Origin: Petasospora fabianii
Taxonomy: Eukaryota > Ascomycota > Saccharomycetes > Phaffomycetales > Wickerhamomycetaceae
Assembly: GCA_022641835.1 (NCBI GenBank)
Contig: CP048725.1
Span: 186,001-250,000, forward strand
Direction of reading: 5' to 3'
DNA length: 64,000 nucleotides
In this document: in pieces, positions 9,486-54,239 of the stretch
Layout: every line of letters begins with the position of its first letter
Position numbering within the stretch: position 1 is the first letter of the stretch
Translations under genes and position numbers: made by a program
Notes under the pieces: generated by a model
What the model saw: only the letters and a program-made list of their open reading frames with translations
What the model was told of the DNA's origin: nothing
Databases searched by the model: none

Positions 9486-10163
9486 TTAGGCTTTAGCGGC
9501 TTTGTTAACCTCATTACCAGAGAGAATGGTGACCTTCTTATCGTGCTTCTTCTGAGACTCCTTCAAAGCAGCCAGTGCAACCTCCTCACCATAGACAGGT
9601 GACATCAAATAGCTAGCAAATCTCGTACCATAGGCCATGGAACCGATCTTAGCACCTAGATTGTTAAGGAACCCCTTGTCCTCCTTTCTATCACCGAGAA
9701 GAGCACCGGGTCTGAGGATGATAGTTTCTTCGAAATCAAGGGCAATCACATCTCTCTCAAGTTCACCTTTCATCTTCAAGTAGGGGAATGGAGATCCAGC
9801 ATTGGCACCGACACTGGAAATGAGAACGTACTTGGTGAAGCCAGCCTCCTTGGCAGCCTTTGCAAGGCTCAAGTTAAGATGGAGATCAATCTTTCTCTGG
9901 TTCTCAATCCCACCACTCTTTGCACGTGTGCTACCAAGACCAGAGAAGAATGTTGAACACTCTGGGTCCTGTTTCTTGATCTGCTTGACCTTGTCGGTCC
10001 AAGTGGAGGAATCCGAGTCGAGAATGGCCTCTAGTTGAGCATTGTCCTTGACGAAATCAGGCTCACTTCTGGAGATTGTGTACGCCTTGTTGAAATACTC
10101 TGGGGCGTGCTTGACGATCAAGTTACCGCAGAGACCAGTGGCTCCGACGATGAGTGCAGACAT
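9486..10163 (-). CDS. FMP52: Fmp52-like NAD(P)-binding protein, copy 1
   Basis: This 225-residue short-chain dehydrogenase-like protein matches yeast Fmp52, found at the mitochondrial outer membrane; its reaction is unknown. The N-terminal Rossmann motif is VGATGLCGN (residues 6-14). Other family segments are FFSGLGSTRAK, NQRKIDLHLNLSLAKAAKE, KYVLISSVGA, PYLKMKGELERDVIAL and IILRPGALLGDR. A homologous gene of identical length lies 793 bases upstream in the same orientation (10957-11634). The two copies align without gaps and appear roughly two-thirds identical by eye, which indicates a tandem duplication of some age. The ATG at 10163 directly begins the Rossmann fold. Confidence 0.88.
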   Translation of the reverse strand: MSALIVGATGLCGNLIVKHAPEYFNKAYTISRSEPDFVKDNAQLEAILDSDSSTWTDKVKQIKKQDPECSTFFSGLGSTRAKSGGIENQRKIDLHLNLSLAKAAKEAGFTKYVLISSVGANAGSPFPYLKMKGELERDVIALDFEETIILRPGALLGDRKEDKGFLNNLGAKIGSMAYGTRFASYLMSPVYGEEVALAALKESQKKHDKKVTILSGNEVNKAAKA

Positions 10164-10956
10164 TTGTAGTTATTGTGTGTGTGCCTTCTGGAAGGGTTTA
10201 GTGGTCAATTGTGTCGTTGGGGAAGAGTGAATGAGCTGCGATGAGGGTGGCAACAGAGAGAAGTGTCTTCGCTTTTTGTCGGGCTCCTAGCAAAGGTCCG
10301 CATGTCGGGGTTAAAAGCGGTTACGGCCGATGGGCTTGCCTTGTCACAAGACAGGATTCGAGGAAGTTCAGATACTTCTGTGTGGTTAATACTGTTACTA
10401 TCGGTGAGATATCCTTGTATTTTTCATACTCTATGCCTCTGTGAGAGGAACAACTGATAATACCACATACATGATGGTTATGGCGTTGATTGGTGCATAT
10501 ATCGCAGGAGGAATCATAGCGGTTATCTCTTACATATGTGGTTTGGTCCTTTCCACATGGCCAGCACCAACAACACCATTGACGCTTTGTCAACCTTGGT
10601 TGTGTGATTACCATTAGGTCATAATTCCGGAGCCTTGCCTAGGACTTTGGCTCTCTCTAGCTTCTTATCGGGATTTATCATTTCTCTCAGTCCAGTGCTG
10701 GTTGCAACGGATTTCAGGGAAGATAAATCCCACTATGTACATAATCATGATATGCTCATCTCTATCCTAATTATCTGTAATATTATTGGTACCTGTAGTA
10801 TAAGGAAGTATAAAGAGGTATAAAGATTATCATTTACACTGGTATGGTATGCTTGGCTTCGGTGCTTTACAAGATGGAAAACTGTGGGCTCAAGATTCGT
10901 ACAGTTCAAAAAGTAGTGATAAATACTTAGCTACTCAAATCGATAAACTCTGCAGT
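10164..10956. other. Intergenic between the two FMP52 copies
   Basis: This 793-base stretch separates the tandem copies. Only short open frames with no recognisable motif are present. I saw no remnant of a third copy and no repeat that would mark the duplication junction. Confidence 0.45.
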
Positions 10957-11634
10957 TTATGCCTTTGCAAGGGCATTAATCTCAGCACCTTCAATGATGG
11001 TAACTTTCTTATCGTGTGTCTTCTGAGCCGTTTTCAAAGCAGCAATTGCCACCTCCTCACCATAGATTGGGGAAAAGACATACTTAGCACATCTTGTGTC
11101 ATGGAAGAGACCAGCAACCTTGACAACTAAGTTGTTAAAAAGTCCCTTATCCTCTTTTCTCTCACCAAGGAGAACACCGGGTCTGAGGATGATGGTCTCA
11201 TCAAATCCAAGAGCAATAACGGCATCCTCCAACTCTCCCTTCATCTTCATGTAAGGGAAGCGGGAACTGGCACTGGCGGCACCACTGGATATCAAGACAT
11301 ATTTTGAGAACCCAGCCTCCTTTGCCGTCTTAGCGAGTTCCAAGTTAAGATCAAGATCGATTTTTCTCTGATTAGCGATGCCGCCAGCTTTAGCACGTGT
11401 AGTACCCAGGCCGGAGAAGAAAGTAGTGCACTGTGAGTCCTGCTCTTTGATCTCCTTGACTTTTTGGCTGCAATTAGAGGAGTCAGAGTCAAGAATAGCC
11501 GTCACTTTAGTTATTCCATTGGTGAAGTCCGGTTGGCTTCTGGATATAGTGTAAATGTGAGAGTAGTACTCTGGGGCATGTTTGACAATGAAGTTGCCGC
11601 AGAGGCCAGTGGCACCAATAACTACAGTGGACAT
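10957..11634 (-). CDS. FMP52: Fmp52-like NAD(P)-binding protein, copy 2
   Basis: This is the second 225-residue member of the tandem pair. It has the Rossmann motif IGATGLCGN, the segment FFSGLGTTRAK, the helix NQRKIDLDLNLELAKTAKE, KYVLISSGAA in place of SSVGA, and IILRPGVLLGER. I chose the ATG at 11634 because it aligns exactly with copy 1; the frame remains open 60 bases further without homology. Differences concentrate in the region after the nucleotide-binding motif and near residues 170-190. Both copies keep full length, so neither looks like a pseudogene. The division of labour between them is unknown. Confidence 0.86.
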   Translation of the reverse strand: MSTVVIGATGLCGNFIVKHAPEYYSHIYTISRSQPDFTNGITKVTAILDSDSSNCSQKVKEIKEQDSQCTTFFSGLGTTRAKAGGIANQRKIDLDLNLELAKTAKEAGFSKYVLISSGAASASSRFPYMKMKGELEDAVIALGFDETIILRPGVLLGERKEDKGLFNNLVVKVAGLFHDTRCAKYVFSPIYGEEVAIAALKTAQKTHDKKVTIIEGAEINALAKA

Positions 11635-11938
11635 GGATAGTTGAGGTGATGTGGTTGCTTTATCAGTAATGTTAAGGCTCAAACTACCCGTCAATTGATC
11701 AATTGGCTCTTCCCGTTAGATAGCCTAATAGGAAAAGAAGCAAGAGAGATACAGTGGCGAATATGTCAAATGTGCTGTCCCCCAGCTAGCGGCTCTAGTC
11801 AGCCGCGGGTTCATTTAATGAGGGCGAGACATCACAACAAGCAACAGTCGAGTACAGCTCAGACAACAAGTTCCATCAAACAAACTAAACATATATTGTA
11901 CATTAGAAATCATTAACCATGCGAGTTTTGTGCCAATA
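11635..11938. other. Intergenic, FMP52 copy 2 promoter and SME1 3' flank
   Basis: About 300 bases with no recognised gene. The segment holds the promoter of FMP52 copy 2 and the 3' end of SME1, which is transcribed in the same direction. Confidence 0.4.
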
Positions 11939-29771: not shown

Positions 29772-32700
29772 AACTTCGATTTTTTAAATTTATTTTCGTT
29801 GACGCGTCAAGATCTCAACATCGAAAGAAAAAGCAAATCCTCTTATTAGAAAATTATTCCTGTTAGAGATCATTCTTAGCAGATTCCTTTGATAAAGTAG
29901 ATACATCAGGTGTGATTGTACTTCCTTGAAAGTTTAGAAGGGCTGTTAGCCGTAGATACAACCACTATGAAGGCGATCAGTACTCACTGGGCCGGGTTTC
30001 TTTTCTCCGCGACGGACGTACCTACGTACATTCAAGGCACCTGACGCTGACTTCACACATGGCCCTCATTCGGTATCGAAGCTCATCTACAAGGTGGGGG
30101 AGGGGTTGCATTGGGTTGCATTCGAAGCCCTAGTAGAACAAAAGGAAATGTGTGGTAAGTAATTCCTATGGATTTTCTTTTAGCTCTTCGTCCCCTCGCA
30201 CTGCTTAGAGCTTCGCTATCTTGCGGTATCGCAGTCGACTTCTCTGCACCGATCTGCGGTCAAATAGCACATGCATCTCCTGCGTCAAGTACGTGTGATA
30301 CGGTTGTTCTCGAAGCCAACTGTGCTGTGCTCACAAGGCTACATTAACGGTTAGCGCTTGGTGATACCTAAAGGAGAGATGCACGGAGAAAAGGAGGGAA
30401 ATTCTTTTGGTGTGGTGTAGCTTCTAGACATGAAACAAGGGGCCTGTTGAGAAGTGTAGATGCACCAGTAACAACGGCTGATCGACTGATAGCGGCCGCG
30501 TGTTTTTGCAGAGACAACCCCATACTCCTCACCCCACATCTGCAACTGATGAAGGGCTTGTTACCGCCAACAAGGTGCAAAAAAGTACATCTAAGCGCAT
30601 CTTGAGTTCTATGGAACCCCTGTACATTTCAACTGGAAGCGAAATGCCTCATCGCAAGATGACTTGTATACTTTCCTTCCTGTTCGGAATACCTTTGCCT
30701 CAACGAGCTTGCTAAAGACGTACTCCATCTGTAATCTACGGAATTGAGCACTTTCCATGCTTCCATAGAATCCATCATCACTAGGTGCGGCTTGATATCA
30801 GAAAACACGGCTACAGTTAGGCGGGCATGTACCTCTTTCATGTGAGCTGACCGGTAAGGTGGCCGTTGTAGTGCACATTGTCATATTACGTTGTGGGCAG
30901 TGTTAGAAAGTTTCGCAACTGGGTAAACCTTTGACCATGTCGTAGCCGTTCAATGACTCACCTTACTCGTTGAAATCAAAGAAGGCAATCCGACATCAAT
31001 CAAGTGTGGGATGAATCTTGTAATCAGTGTTCAAGATAATACCAGATATCTACAATGCTCTGGGGATAGACTGCAAAGGAAATTCTGAAGCTCACAGATG
31101 ACATTGGGTGAGTGTGATTATAGTGATTGGCTGTGATGGCAGCATCTCAATGATCGACATCGCAAAAGCAGGAGATAGAACATAAATTTCCTCTACGTTG
31201 GAGCTGCAGCCTTGTTTAAAGCGCTTTGTGTGAGCTTCTGCAGTCTGTTTATAGACAAATGTTTCGCAAAGCAGCCTAGACACACAGCCTTCTTCCTGCT
31301 CTGTTTAACCACAGCTCATAACTCCCCTTCTTCCTCTGACCTATTCATTTGATTGAAGCCTATTGCAACTTACATTATTAGTAGTATTTTGGAACATTTA
31401 ATGGCCAATTGCAAACCCTCAGGTGCCTCAATTGACCCAACAAGTCAAGCTTTCCAGGTGTTTATTTCTGGAGTTGGGTTACGGGCACTCCACTGTAGGT
31501 TTATACGCTGCAGGCGTACGCGGGTACTGCAACTTGTCGACAGCTTCAACTTTCGACACCAGCACATTTCCAACTTCTACAGGACATTAGACATTGTGTC
31601 TACGAATTGTGAACCCTGTTCTATGAGTGATGTCATTCAGGTCCGTCGGCCCAGTTTTATTTGAGATCGTTATGGTTTTCTCAACTGGAGAAAGCTTTCT
31701 TTTCACTTCTGCTAACCTCGAGGCTCATATCCATCACTGAAAAGCACATGGAATCTTGGCATCGGAAATCCAACAGATTGTTCACATGTTCGTTGTATGT
31801 GGCCCAGCGTAGAGGTGTGGCCCTTGTTGGCGAGATGCGTCTCGATAAGCTGGAAATACAAAGCACTCCTACGCATCGTGCAATAAATTGTTAATATTTA
31901 CTCGCTAGCCTAGATAGAAGTAAATTTAGAATATCGATAGGAGTTTGCTCAATTGTCGGCCGAGGGTGAGAGATCTCCGTGCCATATGATAACAACTACC
32001 ATAGCTGGAACCCTAGTATGTGCCTATATGTTGGCAATCCTAAAGGTAACTGGCATGGTATTATTTTGAGAGTCTCGACCTCTTTCCATCCGTCAAAACA
32101 TCAGCTAAGCTTAGAACCAATAACTGGTTCAGACAAACAGTGTATAGTCGCCAATAAATGCACACTTGACACCTTGCTATACATAGTTGTGCCCCTTGCC
32201 TCAATCACGTCATGCTTCTCAACCCGTTGCCGTGTGTGTACACCAGGAAGATTTCAGTATGCTTCCGTTGCATAGATCCATCCCTTCTGAAAAATGGTGA
32301 GCTTCGTGTGCCTGGCAATCCGCTGGGCTTTATACTCTGGCCTCTGCCTGTCATTTGCCTACTCAAAGCAACTCTGCAGGAACACCGACGGTGTTCTCAG
32401 GGAAAAGCGCTGTTGTAGATCTGCTAACTAATGGATCAGCAAACTACTTGTACAAGCATTAGAGTAATATGATATGTCACGTTGACTTATTCTTGGACTG
32501 TACCTGTTTGGTAAGCTGTTTATTGTCTACTCGTTACTAGATCAAGCCGACAACGGGTCGCATTCTTAGATCTTACACATCCAGCTTCTTCTACAGGTTT
32601 TATTTACATTGATGGGGGTGGGGAACAGTACATTCTACCATCAAGCTTGTTCAGCAACATCATTGCATCGTTGCACATCACAAGGGAAGAGACAGCTGTG

Positions 32701-33646
32701 GTAGATCATCCATGGTCGTCCATCTCTCCAAATCTCAAGAGGTACGTATGACTTAATGCACATGCGACGGTCATAAGCGCCCGATCTGCGAGAATACCTC
32801 AAGACAGACCTAACCAATAGTTCGCTCTCCTGGCTTCCCATCCCAATGCACACATGCACAACCCATTTTTATAACTGAAAACAAAACACAAAATTGATTG
32901 AGCCAATACTGATTAAGATCAGTGTTGCGTAGCGCTCACAAGTCAAGCGGAGATTAAAGAACCCCTCAACTCTTTTTTTTGGTTCGCTTGCGCTTAGTAC
33001 ATCCCCCGGTTTAAACAAAGCCATTGACTACGCCAAGGTAAAGCCAAGGCAAAACCTAACGCAGGAAAGCCGTTAGCCGGTACCTCTGGGGCTTGTTCCT
33101 ACCACTCAGCGGAGGATTCCACACACCCATGAGGATACTGGACCTAAACGGCCGGCCGTTTGTGCGCGTTGTGAGTCTGACGAGTCCTGCAAAGCAGCGC
33201 TGTAAGGCAACGCTTCAAGGTCGTACTGCATGTTCCTTGACGCTAGTTTCTGCGTATTCATCCAAACTTACTATAGTAACGCATGATGGTCAGAGACTGC
33301 AACTGTAGAGTTGCCTCGAATTCCCACACCATTGGGCAGCCTCCTCCTCCTCATAGTACACTTGACAGACACTATCTCGATTCGTCACCTAAACAAGGTC
33401 CCAACGGTTGCCAGCCTGACCCCTCTCAGCCCTACTTCTCACAAGTACTTATAAGCAGTAGTTTCCCCCCATTCTCAGAGATCATTTAAGGCTTTATCAA
33501 ATCGCTATCTGTTATTTATGGATAACACCACTCGGTCATTCAGCCCAACAGTTGAGTGATAAAATAGTGCCTTCCCCCCTCATCCGAGAACCGACGACAA
33601 TCCTTCCTCCTCAACTCGATTGAAAACTCGACCTACACTCCTTCAT
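29772..33646. other. 3.9-kb gene-free stretch before the HMG-like gene
   Basis: I found no recognisable protein, tRNA or repeat family here. All open frames are under about 105 codons and show no familiar motif. Minor structures are a GGGTTGCATT tandem near 30110-30125 and a perfect 16-bp palindrome at 33146-33161. Such a long region in an otherwise compact yeast genome, directly upstream of a probable transcription-factor gene, fits an extended regulatory region with long untranslated or noncoding transcripts. That reading is inference. Confidence 0.5.
33146..33161. promoter_or_regulatory. 16-bp perfect palindrome with CGG-N4-CCG
   Basis: AAACGGCCGGCCGTTT equals its own reverse complement and lies about 485 bases before the ATG of the HMG-like gene. 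The inverted CGG/CCG half sites are of the kind bound by Zn2Cys6 dimers. No direct evidence of use exists. Confidence 0.35.
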
Positions 33647-35455
33647 ATGAACCGTGGTGACGGATATCTACTCTTCGACGGTGACTTGCTACAGAGTAAC
33701 AAATTCGCTGAAGTTGAACACACACTTGACCTGCTTGCCTCCTCGTGGAAGCCAAACAACTTGTTGTCCATGAACTTCGATCAATATGGCGGCCCTTATC
33801 AGGATTCGTCGTATTCTTCCTCACAGAATCAAAATACCAAATCCAATATTGTCAACAATACAGGTTCTATACCAGTAAATTATCCCAATTATCCCATAAG
33901 AAGGCTCGCTGAGAAGGGAGACGCTAACTCTGAATACACCCACCAGCAACCAACTCATATGTTCAATGATGCCCAGCGTATTTCGGAGATACTTGAAGAT
34001 TTCCCAAACCAAGGATACACTCATGACACCACCTGGTCAAACTATGGTACTTCATGCCCTACTAGCTCTACTCCTGGTGAGTCCTCGCATTCTCATACAG
34101 ACTTCTTAGAGTCAAGACGAACCAGCACTTCATTCAACAGAATCGATTCATATACGCCAGATCCATCTCTAGCTCCAAGCTACAACTCTTTCACTGTGCC
34201 ACAAGCTCCTCCTCCTGACCGCTCTTTCCTCTACATGATGGACCCAAACTTGGGCCCGCCCAGACCAACACTTCAGGAATCCCCTGAGCATCCATTGTCC
34301 AATAACCTACACAACACAGGAAGCTATAGCTCCCTTGGCAGCATGTCGTATCCAAGCACAGGCCCCAACACCAGCTGGAAACCAGGATTCGACTCTGTTC
34401 CATCACATCCTCCTGAGTTCTCAAGAAGCAACAGCTTCAGCTACCTGAGCGATCGCAGGGCTAGCACAGCCACCACAAGGACATCATATTCTAGCACTGG
34501 TACACAAGTGAAACCAGCAACTTCCAGTATGCCACCATATCCATCCGAAAAGCATCGAACAAGAAGTGGTAGGGCAAGCACCAATTCCAACTCCGCCACA
34601 GACGAAGAACCAGTCATCTGTAATGACGACGTTGTGAATGAATATTCATGGCTTTCGCTTGGTGAACTGACTGCTGGTATGAGGGTTGAGATTCTTAAAC
34701 TCGCAGAGGAGAAGAAGATCATGTCTCCAAAAAACTTCCTTCTTCCTGATACCGTCTCTGTATCGAGCATCTTGGATGTCTTTAGTCAGAAGCACGTCTT
34801 GTTGAAGCTCGCCATCCTCGACCACATATACGGTGAGCCACTGGTGGGCCAGCCTGTTGATGATGATGGAATTGGCACAATCCCAAAGATGACTTTCCGA
34901 GAGACTTCTGACGGTGTTGAGATTCTAATACAAACCTCAAATGGTCTTGATTATCCTGTCCCAGAGATCACCAACGAACATTTGACAGGTTTAAGGAACG
35001 CTAGGGCGCTTCGTAACCAGCTTTGCAGAACTACAAGAGATGTCCATACGAGTGCTGAGAAACGTCCACATAACTCATGGTTCCTGTATCGTGGTGCACA
35101 GATGAACAGAGCTTCGATCCTCATGATGACTGCTTGTCTCCCAGATGATCTTCCGACTTTGCAAAGAATACAAGAGTCAGTGATTCATGGAACCGGCACG
35201 ATGAGCAAAGAGGAGTGCATTGCAGAGCTTAGGTCAAAACTTGTCGATCCATTTGATGTTAGAGTTGACCTCACAGCTATTGGATATGTTGTGGCGTATA
35301 TGTGGGCCCTTGAGAGTGATCATGTTAAACAGCAGCTCACTGCCATCTCAAGAATTGAACATGCTCACAAGCTCAAGGTCTTCCCAAACTACAAGTATGC
35401 TCCTTCAAGAAAAGCTGGTGGTAAGAGAGGCTCCAACTCATCAGCTGGTAACTGA
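33647..35455 (+). CDS. HMG-box-like transcription factor with insertion in the box (paralogue A)
   Basis: The 602-residue protein has a long Ser/Tyr/Pro/Asn-rich N-terminus (residues about 40-310), a folded region from about 330, and a C-terminal HMG box of the MATA type. Box segments are KRPHNSWFLYR (472-482), IGYVVAYMWALESDHVKQQL, then EHAHKLKVFPNYKYAPSRK (FPNYKY at 579-584). Between the first and second parts lies roughly 60 residues where a normal box has about 20, so about 40 residues are inserted between helix 1 and helix 2. The next gene shares this layout. MATA-type HMG proteins control mating identity or sexual development in fungi, but I cannot assign such a role. The ATG at 33647 is the first in frame. 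Confidence 0.72.
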   Translation: MNRGDGYLLFDGDLLQSNKFAEVEHTLDLLASSWKPNNLLSMNFDQYGGPYQDSSYSSSQNQNTKSNIVNNTGSIPVNYPNYPIRRLAEKGDANSEYTHQQPTHMFNDAQRISEILEDFPNQGYTHDTTWSNYGTSCPTSSTPGESSHSHTDFLESRRTSTSFNRIDSYTPDPSLAPSYNSFTVPQAPPPDRSFLYMMDPNLGPPRPTLQESPEHPLSNNLHNTGSYSSLGSMSYPSTGPNTSWKPGFDSVPSHPPEFSRSNSFSYLSDRRASTATTRTSYSSTGTQVKPATSSMPPYPSEKHRTRSGRASTNSNSATDEEPVICNDDVVNEYSWLSLGELTAGMRVEILKLAEEKKIMSPKNFLLPDTVSVSSILDVFSQKHVLLKLAILDHIYGEPLVGQPVDDDGIGTIPKMTFRETSDGVEILIQTSNGLDYPVPEITNEHLTGLRNARALRNQLCRTTRDVHTSAEKRPHNSWFLYRGAQMNRASILMMTACLPDDLPTLQRIQESVIHGTGTMSKEECIAELRSKLVDPFDVRVDLTAIGYVVAYMWALESDHVKQQLTAISRIEHAHKLKVFPNYKYAPSRKAGGKRGSNSSAGN

Positions 35456-36305
35456 ATTACTGGCTGAAAATTCGTCCCCTAGGACAGTTTGCATATAGTT
35501 TTTTACATTTCTGGAATGGGTAAGACGCTACAATCAGAACATTTGAGCGAAGACTTGTGAAAATGTAGGCATGCAGTATCAACTATTGACTTCTGGTATG
35601 GTAGTTTTCGAAGACACCATTGACAACACTCTTGGCTCGAAAGAAAGACCAGGACACTGTATGATCGCTCAGCGCTTGAAACAGCCCCATGACTGCTGAC
35701 TTGTTGAACGTTATGGTTACCAGTGCTCATTGACAGATTCATATATGACTATTCCTCAGGAACTCGCTGCTCCCTTATCGATTAGAGATGAATTTGGTGC
35801 CCTGAAATAACTCGCGTCTATGATGTCATATAAAATAATAAGTACTAGGGCACTTATCGCACATGGTAGTTGCTGAACAGGTTTTATAGAAAGTAAAAGA
35901 TCATCTCATTCAAATGTAAATTCACCTGATAAGTTGACCTAAAGATAAAATGTCCCCGTTGGGAAAATAGAGACGCCTGTGCAGGTATCCCTTACCTGAT
36001 GATGTCTGTGGCGTTTTTTGAATAATAATATGTGACTCTAGATTCAATTATAAGTGTGATCTAATCCTGTTACAGGAGGCTTGTTCGACTGATAAATATA
36101 TAGATTACACGATTTTGCCTCATGATTTAACGATGAAGCTTTCAATTTGACCCATTTTATGAGGTCTTGGTTCTATTTTGTTGGTTTCGTTAGGGCTGCA
36201 GTTTTTCTAAACATTAATGAACACCCCGATGATCCTCCCCAACGGTCCCTTGATCAACATCCACGGCTGACCGTCCAGGGATCACGGTCTAAGCGTCAAG
36301 GCAGC
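35456..36305. other. Intergenic between the two HMG-like paralogues
   Basis: This 850-base stretch contains the 3' flank of paralogue A and the likely promoter of paralogue B. The open frame of B extends upstream to an ATG at 36159, which is an alternative start. AT-rich sequence lies near 36020-36130. No other gene was recognised. Confidence 0.45.
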
Positions 36306-37607
36306 ATGGACAGAGGAGAAGAATCCGAGGGCAATTCCAACGAGGAGAAGCTATTGGAGCTCATGATGGAGTACCTACAAGAGTCTCCTTCGAGTTGTCA
36401 ACAGGATCCCTTCGACCTCCAACCACCGGGCAACTCAGGCAAGCCAGACCTCCCTCTCCCAGTTAGTGAATCATTCGAGTTTGATGGTGGTGGGTCTCAC
36501 TTGCTCAACGATCCTCCATATCGTGCTAGTATGAATTCCCTCATTAGCTCAAAGCGCCCGCCATATGATGGCATGTGTCTTAAGAAAGTTTGGATTAATC
36601 TCAACACCTTCAAGATTTCGCTTTTACGTGCAGAGGAGCAGATTGTGATTGCTAATGATCCTTACGGATCACCTGTTCCTGGAAATATGGTGAGATCAGG
36701 ACATCATTGTGACCCATTTGTTGCCAATGAGTATCAATGGATCCCCTGGCCAACGATGTCAGAGGAGATGTGGGAACAGTTAATGACTGAGATTGGTGGG
36801 CAACGTTCTCTCAAGAAGGCAAAAATGGAAGATTCTGAGGTGCAAAACACTTTGCTAATTGCACAAAGACTAAAGAAGGTAACTCAACAGCAGTTCATCG
36901 AATGGAAGATCAACATCATTGCTAAATTGGTTGGAAAGGATGCAGTTTTCAACACTGAAAAGTATTATGAGATGCATCAATACGTTTTGCCAGCTATTAT
37001 GGAACATCAGCAGGGCGATAAGTTCAGATTTTCACTGCTTCTCGAGACTTGGGATGGTATTGCTCCACCTCTTCATCAAGTTGCTGGTACGCTTTTGGAT
37101 ACTGCAGACGACTCAAGAGTCGCTCGTTTCCAAAAGTTCACTGAGAGCCTTTCTCGGCTCAAGCATATCAAGTGTTTTAATACTGATGACACATTGAGCA
37201 GATCGAAATATCATGTTGTTCACTCTTTTGTCAACACCGGTAAAAGGGTCAATCAGAATACATTGTTTTATCTCAGACGCGCACTTCGTCGCCTGTTTGT
37301 CATTCTATGTGTTGCTGATATACTTCCAAGCGATGCTGCTATCCTACAAAAGATTGACGACAACGCAGATATGAGTCAAGTTCATGAAAGTTTGGGGAGC
37401 CTAGAGGATGTTCTTAAGAAACTCGAAAACATTGACCTTCCCTACAACAGATTCGGTACTGTTATTATGGCTCTCTGGGATGTCTGGAAAGATAGCGAGG
37501 TTGAGGTTGGTGATCATGGTGAGAAGTTGAGGGATATGATCCAAAAATTTCGCAAGAATCAAGGTGACAACATCCACTTCAAAGTCTACCCAAGGGCTGG
37601 GAAGTGA
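36306..37607 (+). CDS. Divergent paralogue of the HMG-like factor (paralogue B)
   Basis: I recognise no database family from this 433-residue protein alone, but its second half aligns with the upstream gene. KRVNQNTLFYLRRAL (from residue 313) parallels KRPHNSWFLYRGAQM; ILCVADILPSDAAILQKI parallels ILMMTACLPDDLPTLQRI; FGTVIMALWDVWKDSEVEV parallels IGYVVAYMWALESDHV; KVYPRAGK parallels KVFPNYKY. NEYQWIPWPTMSEEM also parallels NEYSWLSLGELTAGM. The HMG signature residues RPxN and PxYKYxP are lost, so DNA binding in the usual way is doubtful. The start at 36306 (MDRGEE) is preferred because it resembles MNRGDG of paralogue A; ATG 36159 would add 49 residues. A long hairpin lies 25 bases after the stop. 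Confidence 0.68.
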   Translation: MDRGEESEGNSNEEKLLELMMEYLQESPSSCQQDPFDLQPPGNSGKPDLPLPVSESFEFDGGGSHLLNDPPYRASMNSLISSKRPPYDGMCLKKVWINLNTFKISLLRAEEQIVIANDPYGSPVPGNMVRSGHHCDPFVANEYQWIPWPTMSEEMWEQLMTEIGGQRSLKKAKMEDSEVQNTLLIAQRLKKVTQQQFIEWKINIIAKLVGKDAVFNTEKYYEMHQYVLPAIMEHQQGDKFRFSLLLETWDGIAPPLHQVAGTLLDTADDSRVARFQKFTESLSRLKHIKCFNTDDTLSRSKYHVVHSFVNTGKRVNQNTLFYLRRALRRLFVILCVADILPSDAAILQKIDDNADMSQVHESLGSLEDVLKKLENIDLPYNRFGTVIMALWDVWKDSEVEVGDHGEKLRDMIQKFRKNQGDNIHFKVYPRAGK

Positions 37608-38347
37608 AAGTTACATGCGCAGATTATCTGTTCATCAAGGCACGGTGTTCAGGGCTCGGTGTTCGGGCATGTCCTGACCACCGTGCCTTGATGAGCTGTA
37701 ATCGGCGCATGTATGATTTTGTTAGTTGGTTATTGCGATTACCACAAATATATAAAAAGCCAAAAGTGCACAAAAGATCTGACTCGTAGTTGAGTTTTGC
37801 CTAGAAGACGATAGTCTCTACATAAGCGTCAAGTCAGGCGTATACCCATGGGGCATTGCACGTTTCAAAACATGCACAAGTTCCTCTGCAACGTGGATCC
37901 TATGAGCATGAAGCACTTAAAATATCGCTATAGAATGTGTGAGTACATAGGATAACATGGCGGACGACGGCTCGCTCACTATGCCTCTCGGGATCAAGAG
38001 GGATGAGGATCTTGGGGGCCGGGTAAATCTGCCAAAAATTCACGGGCGCCATTTGGTCCTCCGCGCGACCAACGAATTTTTTCACTTTGGACAAAACAAG
38101 TGGAGAGGTGAATATCAATATTTGGCACATCGATTGTCACTAAATTCACATAAAGGGGCCATCAAGAGGAGGATACTTCACGGTTTTCAACTTAAGTTTT
38201 CACTAGCCTGCCCGAAAAGCAGACGTTCGCAGAAGAACGAGATACAAATCTTGAAAGATCAACACACATCGAACAGTCCACATCATCCATCAAAAAATAC
38301 CCATAGATCATCAGTACACTCCCACCTCTTGCACATAACGCAACATA
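37608..38347. other. Intergenic, paralogue B 3' flank and MRPL3 promoter
   Basis: It contains the hairpin at 37632-37694 (separate entry). An open frame from 37957 overlaps the start of MRPL3 in another frame, but its sequence shows no motif. No other gene is seen. Confidence 0.45.
37632..37694. repeat. Long hairpin (16-bp perfect arms plus inner stems)
   Basis: TCATCAAGGCACGGTG (37632-37647) is the exact reverse complement of 37679-37694. Inside, TCAGG (37649-37653) pairs with CCTGA (37673-37677), and GCTCG (37654-37658) pairs with CGGGC (37664-37668, one T:G), leaving a 5-nt apical loop. The structure starts 25 bases after the stop codon of paralogue B, so it would lie in that transcript's 3' UTR. 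It could act on RNA stability or termination, or be a small palindromic element. Arm sequence is not followed by a T-run typical of a bacterial-type terminator. Confidence 0.8.
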
Positions 38348-50718: not shown

Positions 50719-52338
50719 TCACACCATCAAGTTAGTTTCACCAAGTCCGGCAACACCATTCTTAACATCCAACAATGAATCGTGTGGCTCGGCATCCCCG
50801 GCAAAGATCATAGCTGGGTCAGACATGTCAAAACTCATCAACTCGTAAGCGCCACCGCTCGTTGTGGAAACTTGTGGGTTCATAAACAAGTCACCATCAA
50901 GCGGGGAGTTATTGGTTAGTGTGTTGTACAAGCTGCCATCTCCAAGATCAGTTGAGCTCGATGGGGGAGTGAGTAGTGTGTTGGTATCAAGAACGTGCTG
51001 TGGAGTGGTTTCAGTCTGAATGTTTGGCCATTGTGTCTCCTCAGATGGCAACAGGCTCCACGATTCTGGTGATGAGTTGTTAACCGTTGTGCGGGCTTGT
51101 GGTGTGTTAGCTGTTGTGGAGATGGTGGCAGAAGTGGATGGGGCATTAGATGTGGTGTTGGTAGTCTTCGTAGTGGTATTCAAAAGTGAAGATCTATCTG
51201 GTTCAAATTGTGTCAAGTCAACCTGTGATGGTGTCATGTTGGATACTTGAAGGTTGAAGTCAGTCATCTTAAACTCATTATTGTTACTTGGCGGTTGCGA
51301 AACTGGAACAAATTCTGGACTGAAGTTCAACACAGAACCCATATCAAGACTGTCGAGACCAACAACACCCAAGTCAAGACTGTGGTGTCTCATTGGTGCA
51401 ACATTGATATCCAAACTGTTGCTGAGCGAAAGAATGTCATTCTGTGGCATCACTGGAGTCAAATCAATAGATGGGGCATTGGAAGGTGTAGCTGTAGAGG
51501 CAGCAGAAGGGTAAGCATCAGCACCTGGGGCTGTGGCTGATACTGGAGCGGGAGCTGGAGCTGTTGGGGCAATTGTCTCCTCTCTCTTCACCCTCTTCTT
51601 ACTGTGGTAGTTGTTGGTAATGTCAGAGTTCGATCTGAAGTGAGAACGCTTGTTGGTGCCCAGAGATGGACGCTCACGAACACGGTGCTCAATGGCCTTC
51701 ATATGCTTCCAGCACTGATCACCATAGCTCTTTGGAGTCAGTCCTGTAACACTCTTGAAGACACGGTGGAAATGCCATGGTGACAACTTAGACTTAGAGG
51801 CCAGCTCCTTAAAACCAAGTACACCACCTCTTCTCTTTTTCTTGTTCTCACCAGCTGGCTCCTCAGGCTCCTTAGTGATGTTTTCAGCGGCAGCGGCAGA
51901 AATGTGACGACAAGCCAACTCAACAAGCTTTACATGCTCAGACTCGTTTCTGGTCAACTGACGTTCATTGAGGTGACCATCAGTGGTGTTGACGCTTGGA
52001 GTGGAAAAGGCACGCTTCTTGATGTCCGATGACTCTTGTGTGAATCCAATAGAGTAGTTGATGGATTCAATGGTAGATCTGATCAAATCGATGTTCAAAT
52101 CGGCACTCGAAGAGAGGGGCGAACACTGCGAGCAGGGCTTGAAGCCAACAGACACAGCCTGCTGTGCTGAGTCGAGAAAGGTGACATCCTCCTTAGCAAT
52201 AACCTTCGGGTAGTGGTCACAGCTTGGACGGCAGACAACACCGTTCTTCTTGTTGGCAGCGACAAAGGCATTGGCAGCAAATGGGTCGCTAAACTGGTAA
52301 GCGTCCCACTTGGCAGTGTGTGAAGAGTACTGTGACAT
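50719..52338 (-). CDS. Ada-type zinc domain plus AraC-type HTH regulator
   Basis: This 539-residue protein starts with the metal-binding domain of bacterial Ada: WDAYQFSDPFAANAFVAANK and zinc ligands Cys36, Cys40, Cys69 and Cys72 (VVCRPSC and FKPCSQC). An AraC-type helix-turn-helix follows at about 134-215 (GFKELASKSKLSPWHFHRVF, KSVTGLTPKSY). The rest (about 225-539) is low-complexity Ser/Thr/Asn/Pro sequence with Asp and hydrophobic residues, like a fungal activation domain. There is no methyltransferase domain with a PCHR motif, so the O6-methylguanine repair activity of Ada is absent. In Ada the Cys38 thiol accepts methyl from DNA phosphotriesters; Cys36 here is the equivalent. I infer a transcription factor, perhaps alkylation-responsive. 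The ATG at 52338 (MSQYSSH) directly precedes the domain. Confidence 0.85.
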   Translation of the reverse strand: MSQYSSHTAKWDAYQFSDPFAANAFVAANKKNGVVCRPSCDHYPKVIAKEDVTFLDSAQQAVSVGFKPCSQCSPLSSSADLNIDLIRSTIESINYSIGFTQESSDIKKRAFSTPSVNTTDGHLNERQLTRNESEHVKLVELACRHISAAAAENITKEPEEPAGENKKKRRGGVLGFKELASKSKLSPWHFHRVFKSVTGLTPKSYGDQCWKHMKAIEHRVRERPSLGTNKRSHFRSNSDITNNYHSKKRVKREETIAPTAPAPAPVSATAPGADAYPSAASTATPSNAPSIDLTPVMPQNDILSLSNSLDINVAPMRHHSLDLGVVGLDSLDMGSVLNFSPEFVPVSQPPSNNNEFKMTDFNLQVSNMTPSQVDLTQFEPDRSSLLNTTTKTTNTTSNAPSTSATISTTANTPQARTTVNNSSPESWSLLPSEETQWPNIQTETTPQHVLDTNTLLTPPSSSTDLGDGSLYNTLTNNSPLDGDLFMNPQVSTTSGGAYELMSFDMSDPAMIFAGDAEPHDSLLDVKNGVAGLGETNLMV

Positions 52339-54239
52339 TGTTGTAGGAAATGTGGGGGTTGCGCAGGGGCAGTAGGGGGGTAAGGAACGTTGACAGAGGC
52401 AAAAGTTCAGGATGAGAGACCGGCAACGGAGGCAGGAATTAGCGTCCCTTTGAGTATCTCTGGAAAAGCTGTTGATGAGCGACTGAGTGGGTGGGTGGCG
52501 TTTCACGGATCCAGCGGGGAATTGACCGTGATAAACTGTGTGCAAGGTACGGGTTTGGGGGGTACCGGAGGGTGTCGCTCTGGTGCTTCTGTATCTCTAT
52601 GTTAGAGATTGTAGTTCGTGGTGGAGAAAAAACTAGATGATTTGGGGAACTTCGATGTCGAGGGGGAAAACCCACTCTACTTATAACCCTGTCCCCCCAG
52701 TGGGCCTTGTGCTTGTGATGCCATGGGACTCTCTCCTCCCGGCTGGTGCGCGCACACTAGGTAAGAGCACGTCATAGAGACGTGGCACAGAGGACTGCGT
52801 CATCCGTGTCCCGCATGTGTGTAGGAATGCGGGCAACTGCGGGACATTTGGGCACTCAGTTGACAGGCTCTCTCACTCGTAATCGTTCTGCATGCATCAC
52901 CGGCTAGCCCAGATGGGTGGGCCACAGAGGTGGGGCCCCAGAGGAAAAGTGCAGAGGAAGAGCAGAGCCCGCAGTTTTCAACCTAGTCAGTCTGGGCACA
53001 ACTACCAAACGTGTGACAATTGCTCGCCGTTGTAGGATCAGCTCTGTAAAGGCAAGTCGAGAAATGCGTCCGTCTACCGTCACGGCTCCCATCATCCAAG
53101 GGGAGAAGAGCCGTAGGGTCTACAACGGTGGTACTTACCGCTCGGTGGCTTGGTTGTTGTACGCTGTATACTACGTCAGCACCACTGGCACTGCTTGCAC
53201 TACATGTGTGTGCCTGGAGCGCAACTTGCCCGCTCAACGGTTGTGGATGCCTGATTTGGATGCGTTGCGTCTGATAGGATGGCACACTTACTGGTAATTA
53301 TTTCCCACTTTGCTTCAAACATCTTTCAGTTGGCATCTTTTGACGAAACTATTGTCCCCGCTCGGTAAGAAAGCGGGGGCGCCTCACTCTCGCGCTTCGT
53401 GGTGCACATATATGCTCCCTGCTCTGTCCTTCCTCTCTCCTCTATATTGTTCTCTCCTCTTCTTTCACTCTTTTTTCACTGTAATATTTGACCTGTTCTG
53501 AAACATATGTCATTTTTCTTTTCACCATCACTCTCCTCTCCTTCTCACCAAATGTATGAAAAAACTCTATTTCGCTGATGCATCTCTCCACCAAGTGCAT
53601 CATGTATTCAGTGTGTCTTTTTGTCGTTGTTGACTTTTTTCCTGGGTTATGCACATTCCATGATTTAGGCGCAACTACTTCAACCAGCACAATCGTTGCA
53701 GATCAATAAAATAAAAACTGAAAAAAAAAAATAAAAAAAAATCGAGATTGTGGTGGGTTGAGGCTATGTTAGCCTTGACGTCAACGCGCTACCAGGGTCT
53801 AGAAGATTCGTGCCGATCCGGAACTCGGAGAAGAGCGAACGTTCTGCACACATCAGTTCATGTGTGTGGACCAATCTTAACCCTGTTCAACAAACTAATT
53901 CGTAGTCAAAACTGAGCTTGGTTAAATTAGCTGGCGTTGGAGGGTGTTTTGAATATTTTGGAAGAGATGCTGTGACGTCGTAATGGATAAAATTACCTTA
54001 TACGCGCGGCGCGACCTTTCATGTGGAATTGGTGGAGAGACGTTCATCATCGGTTTGTAAGGACTTTCCTGTCAATATATTTTTGATAAATGAAAGAAAA
54101 TGTCAAATATGTGTACACGATCGACAAAAGTTATTCAACGATCCAATTTTTATGTACGTTAGTTACATTGAAGGAAATCTGGCTTATCGTCCGCGTAGCT
54201 AGGACTAGGGTTCATCTGGCACACGGAGAAACTCAGTAC

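Follow-up and report, generated by a model that had tools for sequence, protein, structure and literature searches.

A divergent, apparently split HMG box and its degenerate tandem paralogue in the yeast Petasospora fabianii

Can an HMG box, a compact and widespread DNA-bending fold, accommodate a long insertion in its core loop, and can a sister protein keep that insertion while losing the motifs with which the fold grips DNA? The question is raised by two adjacent genes, here called A and B, in a 64,000-nucleotide stretch of Petasospora fabianii (the window: positions 186001-250000 of contig CP048725.1, or C11, in a genome of 12.34 Mb and 16 contigs). Gene A (33647..35455, plus strand) is an open reading frame (ORF) of 602 amino acids (aa) with an in-frame codon signal and a putative split HMG box at its C-terminal end. 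Gene B (36306..37607, plus strand; 433 aa) is a tandem paralogue that lacks HMG signatures and was linked to A by BLASTP and by shuffles of its C-terminal half. Its start ATG at 36306 lies 850 bp past the stop codon of A on the same strand, in agreement with the 0.85 kb given in an earlier sequence-only reading of this locus; an in-frame ATG further upstream, at 36159, is also a possible start. Profile comparisons support a split box of the SOX/MATA type in A, and the alignments make a solid case for the paralogy of A and B. A role in mating, which the sequence-only reading had proposed for the pair, is not supported.

All features of A described here are on the plus strand. Residues 1 to 320 (33647..34606) form a tail rich in serine, proline, threonine, and asparagine (17.2%, 10.0%, 9.4%, and 8.1%, respectively), which to judge from this composition is probably disordered. 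A domain common to B follows (aa 325 to 471; 34619..35059), beginning near the motif NEY.W and delimited by alignment of A with B against shuffles; it has no Pfam match, and a profile built from A and B found no credible match in the PDB (best E value, 0.025, to a BON-domain protein). The HMG-like region opens with an N-terminal strand and helix 1 (KRPHNSWFLYR...; aa 472 to 491, 35060..35119; left profile block, 20.25) and closes with helix 2, helix 3, and a PxYxYxP tail (aa 541 to 602, 35267..35452; right profile block, 30.75), and between them lies the extra segment (aa 492 to 540, 35120..35266). The motifs stand where the sequence-only reading had placed them, KRPHN at aa 472 (35060) and FPNYKYAP at aa 579 (35381), and the enlarged spacing that it described is real: 57 residues separate the two blocks in A, compared with 14 in the genome's own Rfg1/Rox1-like protein, a net gain of 43. 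A therefore departs from the single contiguous box of ∼70 to 80 residues.

Because a long insertion penalizes one-piece models, we scored boxes with a two-block profile, consisting of an ungapped helix-1 block (14 columns) and a helix-2-to-tail block (45 columns) at most 120 residues apart, and ranked 194 ORFs from the window and from fetched loci. With a profile of four boxes that excludes A (the Rfg1/Rox1-like protein and MATa2 of this genome, SRY, and SOX30), A scored 51.0 and ranked third; only the Rfg1-like protein (168.0, itself in the model) and L014 (61.5) were higher, two genuine HMG proteins fell below A (47.2 and 45.5), and the next ORF reached 16.8. This score was attained by 0 of 1,000 shuffles of the last 290 aa (maximum, 12.5) and by 0 of 400 shuffles of the whole protein (maximum, 22.0), which bears out the split MATA-type box proposed from the sequence. 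The result held when the composition of the profile was changed: A ranked fifth of 194 with SRY and SOX30 only, behind four HMG ORFs, and fifth again with the Rfg1-like protein, SRY, and SOX30 (0 of 300 shuffles in each case), and second with MATa2 only (41.0, close to a shuffle maximum of 39.0; 0 of 300 shuffles reached A). With HMGB-type boxes only, A dropped to 10th and 3 of 300 shuffles reached it, so that A resembles boxes of the sequence-specific SOX/MATA type. A HMMER model of the four boxes placed A 9th of 198 ORFs (E value, 0.0011), and the eight higher entries were all HMG ORFs or MATa2 exons. Taken separately, the helix-2-to-tail half is strong against shuffles (0 of 2,000 with MATA boxes and 1 of 2,000 with all boxes; ranks 6 and 7 of 198 ORFs). 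At the level of DNA, the pattern for [YF]PxYxYxP occurs at 10 places genome-wide, and the three with RPxN upstream are the Rfg1-like protein, A, and MATa2, where the pairing spans an intron; a fourth place sits in what we take, from its appearance, to be a forkhead-like protein.

On the sequence evidence, the extra segment itself is genuine protein, as had been claimed. Among the six frames, its own scores highest for codons, and the interval 34900-35400 contains no donor-like site with a CTRAY branch point after it; on these two observations we reject an intron in A's box, a matter of some relevance because MATa2 of this genome carries an intron within its HMG box, and on the codon signal we consider the segment to be coding. 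It is acidic (pI 4.75), and both AlphaFold models, which are of low confidence and not independent of each other, draw helices in the extra segment. The accessible portions of the literature on split, interrupted, or atypical HMG boxes and on MAT/HMG proteins contained no such insertion.

Gene B aligns with A along two consecutive stretches on the plus strand, an upstream domain (aa 135 to 311 of B, 36708..37238) and a span homologous to the split box (aa 312 to 433, 37239..37604). BLASTP between A and B gave an E value of 3e-5 at 19% identity, and shuffle counts are given here as pairs, with B and then A shuffled (n = 2,000 each). The upstream halves (A 325 to 471 and B 135 to 311) were matched by 0 and 1 shuffles and the HMG-like halves by 0 and 0, so that chance similarity is excluded by both kinds of evidence, and the relationship on which the sequence-only reading depended is significant over the very span that it had named. 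The signal is unevenly distributed: the extra segment alone was equaled by 30 and 33 shuffles, helix 1 alone by 512 and 566, and the helix-2-to-tail part alone by 348 and 385, and the N-terminal tails of the two proteins do not align (735 and 785). A gap-free stretch of 36 residues, 12 of them identical, extends out of helix 1 and into the extra segment, whose counterpart in B (37302..37442, plus strand) contains LPSDAAILQKI and, like the segment in A, lies in the frame with the best codon score. A and B share the point at which the insertion starts, which supports, without proving, the claim that it predates the duplication; together with the shuffle counts for the segment, we consider this order of events to be moderately supported. 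Genome-wide tblastn searches for a third member of the family recovered A alone with A as the query, and B plus one match at an E value of 0.906 with B as the query; since the search with A missed even B, further diverged members may exist. Three scans of viral contigs found no relatives, and a 490-aa ORF next to L015's HMG gene, alike by eye, proved to be unrelated (E values, 0.032 and 0.73).

Consistent with the sequence-only reading, the RPxN and PxYxYxP motifs are absent from the part of B that is homologous to A's box. Whole B scored 6.25 with the four-box profile (reached by 31 of 500 shuffles) and 30.0 with SRY and SOX30 (6th of 194; 1 of 500 shuffles), the latter with a placement (aa 74 and 162) that misses the homologous span; when residues 301 to 433 were scored alone with three sets of boxes, 4, 8, and 95 of 500 shuffles did as well. 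B thus has no convincing HMG box, and, given how weak and inconsistent the HMG signal in B itself is, its descent from an HMG protein rests on homology to A. Its position next to A on the same strand and its 433 open codons with an in-frame codon signal suggest continued selection.

Immediately 3′ of B, starting 4 nucleotides past its stop codon, is a near-perfect hairpin of ∼100 nucleotides (window positions 37612-37713; -70.2 kcal/mol, z score of -10.4, 0 of 200 shuffles as stable), the longest and most complementary of the five close inverted repeats listed for the window. A genome search with it found just its own place and its own reverse complement, and it has no Rfam match.

We then asked where the mating-type genes of this genome lie. 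Contig C1 encodes a homeodomain at 631963, and the SLA2 frame is ∼10 kb away; the homeodomain marks MATa1 (∼C1:631437-632160, where inspection by eye showed an intron); MATa2 is divergent to it (∼630.9 to 629.9 kb), giving a MATa locus at ∼629850-632160 (L027), with SLA2 itself at ∼642 to 645 kb and the MATa1/MATa2 pair at ∼630 to 632 kb. Removal of a predicted 72-bp intron with a TACTAAC branch point yields a MATa2 of 313 aa, whose HMG box has no insertion and is split by the predicted intron only, which is why a six-frame scan with PF00505 missed it. By recognition, we take the surrounding genes to include a dicarboxylate-type carrier and NAP/VPS75-like, RPA49-like, DPH4-like, LRO1-like, FOL1-like, and CRS1-like genes, which fits the ancestral surroundings of an SLA2-linked MAT locus. 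Neither A nor B, which lie on C11, is linked to SLA2 or beside MATa1; the pair near SLA2 on C1 excludes A/B as the MAT locus, and A and B are therefore additional genes. PF04769 (MATalpha_HMGbox) had no match genome-wide, in a scan in which no control matched either, and none in A or B at E values of ≤10. In the accessible text of one survey, most fungal MATA-type proteins have roles in sexual processes, and the type also includes a non-sexual regulator, ROX1 (PMC3730723).

The intergenic region 5′ of A (29773-33646; 3.9 kb) contains a single listed ORF of at least 100 aa (103 aa) and ranks second in size among the 29 gaps of the window, others being 4.1 and 3.6 kb. It could be a large regulatory region, and the large gaps of the window may hold unannotated genes. 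Simple counts, made without shuffles, gave one TGAAAC, one CTTTGTT, and seven WWCAAWG upstream of A; the density of WWCAAWG was the highest among five gaps and close to the runner-up (1.81 versus 1.64 per kb), and by these counts there is no clear excess of HMG- or mating-type sites 5′ of A.

We favor, at roughly even chances and on the basis of sequence comparison, the interpretation that A is a divergent split-box regulator and B its degenerate paralogue without a minor wing, acting as partner or antagonist. A number of results weigh against this. The helix-1 half of A is weak when scored alone (27 of 2,000 shuffles with MATA boxes and 4 of 2,000 with all boxes; ranks 17 and 8 of 198 ORFs). 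Pfam assigns no family to A or B at E values of ≤10, the six-frame PF00505 scan of the genome finds five places, none of them A, and a one-piece model of seven boxes gives A 0.7 bits (E value, 76). An hhalign comparison of the A-plus-B alignment with HMG boxes returned a probability of 0.5% and aligned helix 1 alone. The two AlphaFold models, built from a two-row alignment, are poor (mean pLDDT, 40.5 and 42.5), and the model of A draws helices 2 and 3 as a single long helix with no L. Foldseek listed no HMG protein among the best 50 of the 176 and 398 matches for the two models, and no match of any kind reached an E value of ≤0.001. Finally, A and B are known here from one genome. A phmmer search of the PDB matched A to SRY entries only, at an E value of 1.5, on its tail.

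Several of these results would be expected if the HMG resemblance of A were convergent and A and B belonged to a non-HMG family, since neither Pfam, a one-piece model, hhalign, nor the structure models recover the fold; we consider this very improbable, given that the ordered pair of blocks scores far above the shuffle maxima and that A ranks directly behind true HMG proteins even when the profile contains animal boxes alone. Still harder to credit is a split produced by an unspliced intron or a frameshifted assembly: the genome does have a precedent in the intron inside the MATa2 box, but A's frame codes best, no donor in the region precedes a branch point, and B carries an aligned segment. 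That A and B are mating-system genes, as a relocated or accessory MAT-type HMG pair, would accord with the SOX/MATA character of A's box, with the sexual roles of most fungal MATA-type proteins, and with the HMGX gene of Lipomyces, described in the accessible part of its source as an extra, distant HMG gene at MAT loci (PMC6692504). We nevertheless judge it improbable, because MATa1 and MATa2 are present near SLA2, the neighbors of A and B are RPB2, a mitochondrial L23-type ribosomal protein, and an RNase III/dsrm protein, and HMG- or mating-type sites show no clear excess upstream of A. The most substantial alternative accepts A as a split-box HMG regulator and treats B as sharing its scaffold only, with an unrelated present role and no function as partner or antagonist. 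The low identity of A and B, the weak and misplaced HMG signal of B, and a helix-2-to-tail part that aligns no better than shuffles would all fit this; the adjacency and apparent continued selection of B, and the alignment of its whole C-terminal half with A at 0 of 2,000 shuffles, speak against it, and on balance we think it unlikely, if worth keeping in mind.

SOX/MATA boxes bind and bend DNA, and their minor wing is made up of the N-terminal strand and the end of helix 3. If A is a divergent regulator of this type, its box would retain the DNA-gripping parts (the RPxN strand, helices 2 and 3, and the PxYxYxP tail), with the ∼43 extra residues seated in the loop between helices 1 and 2, and A could be expected to bind and bend DNA, while the insertion and the upstream domain shared with B would offer surfaces for protein-protein contacts. 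B would then be an old tandem duplicate that kept the upstream domain as well as helix 1 with the insertion and lost the minor-wing signatures, a non-DNA-binding HMG remnant that might serve as A's partner or as its antagonist or competitor. In comparison with SOX/MATA proteins such as fungal MATa2, Rox1/Rfg1, and Ste11 and animal SRY/SOX, A shares the RPxN strand with helix 1, the helix 2-3 pattern, and the PxYxYxP tail but differs in its 43 additional residues between helices 1 and 2, in escaping Pfam, and in its conserved upstream domain common to B.

A structural precedent comes from human RNA polymerase I. According to the accessible portions of one article, RPA1 contains an HMG-like domain (dock II) in which an insertion between helices 1 and 2 contacts another subunit; the domain has no minor wing, a minimal construct showed no major DNA binding, and a longer fragment showed residual binding at high excess (PMC9438803). 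The same portions note that the helix 1-2 loop of canonical HMG boxes can contact DNA and add specificity (PMC9438803). Dock II thus resembles A and B in the position of its insertion, and apparently B in its missing minor wing, but it is part of a polymerase subunit in animals, the likeness is one of description rather than sequence, and A retains the minor-wing motifs. By analogy, an acidic loop surface would have been added to A with DNA binding retained, and a DNA-binding A with a non-binding partner B is plausible. A more ambitious proposal, that the pair represents a new HMG subclass in which an interaction module sits in the helix 1-2 loop and duplication yielded a DNA-bending A and a stripped B that titrates or modulates it, is tentative, and equally so is its corollary, in which such a subclass would be the counterpart in yeast of the stripped RNA polymerase I dock. 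If correct, the reading of A as regulator and B as degenerate partner would capture an HMG regulator turning into a protein-docking module by way of a MATA-type box with a 43-residue insertion in its core loop.

Two further comparisons are with diverged fungal HMG proteins. Lipomyces HMGX, like A and B an extra diverged HMG gene in a budding yeast, is the nearest yeast parallel that we found, by description only; the available text reports no known function for it and places it away from MAT in L. kononenkoae (PMC6692504), and it differs from A and B, which lie elsewhere, in being usually at the MAT locus. MATalpha1, with its alpha box, is likewise a diverged fungal branch of the HMG superfamily but differs in its shorter helices 1 and 3 and its fourth helix, and an insertion goes unmentioned in the portion of the source available (PMC2999568). 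The failure of Pfam to find A, and of the PF00505 scan to find the intron-split MATa2, is a caution that such boxes escape family models and scans in six frames.

A and B are surrounded by RPB2, the mitochondrial L23-type ribosomal protein gene, a tRNA-Thr gene, and the RNase III/dsrm protein gene, and one nearby ORF is, by its appearance, presumably acetyltransferase-like. The Rpb2 protein scores 2235 and 2218 bits against its two best PDB groups (Komagataella and S. cerevisiae YOR151c, respectively) and 1998 bits against the next one (S. pombe), which, like the MATa1/MATa2 genes near SLA2, marks the host as a budding yeast. Of eight CTG codons in RPB2, five coincide, as judged by eye, with leucines in the yeast Rpb2 sequences of the alignment, one is at a variable position, and two are outside the alignment; since most match aligned leucines, the standard code was retained and alternative CTG decoding was dropped. 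Elsewhere in the window, the minus strand at 50719-52545 encodes a protein that combines an Ada-type metal-binding domain with a sub-threshold match to an AraC-type helix-turn-helix, a kind of protein that is, to our knowledge, unusual in budding yeast. Two adjacent HIM1/NAD-binding proteins on the minus strand at 9486-11694 are apparently another tandem duplication in the window.

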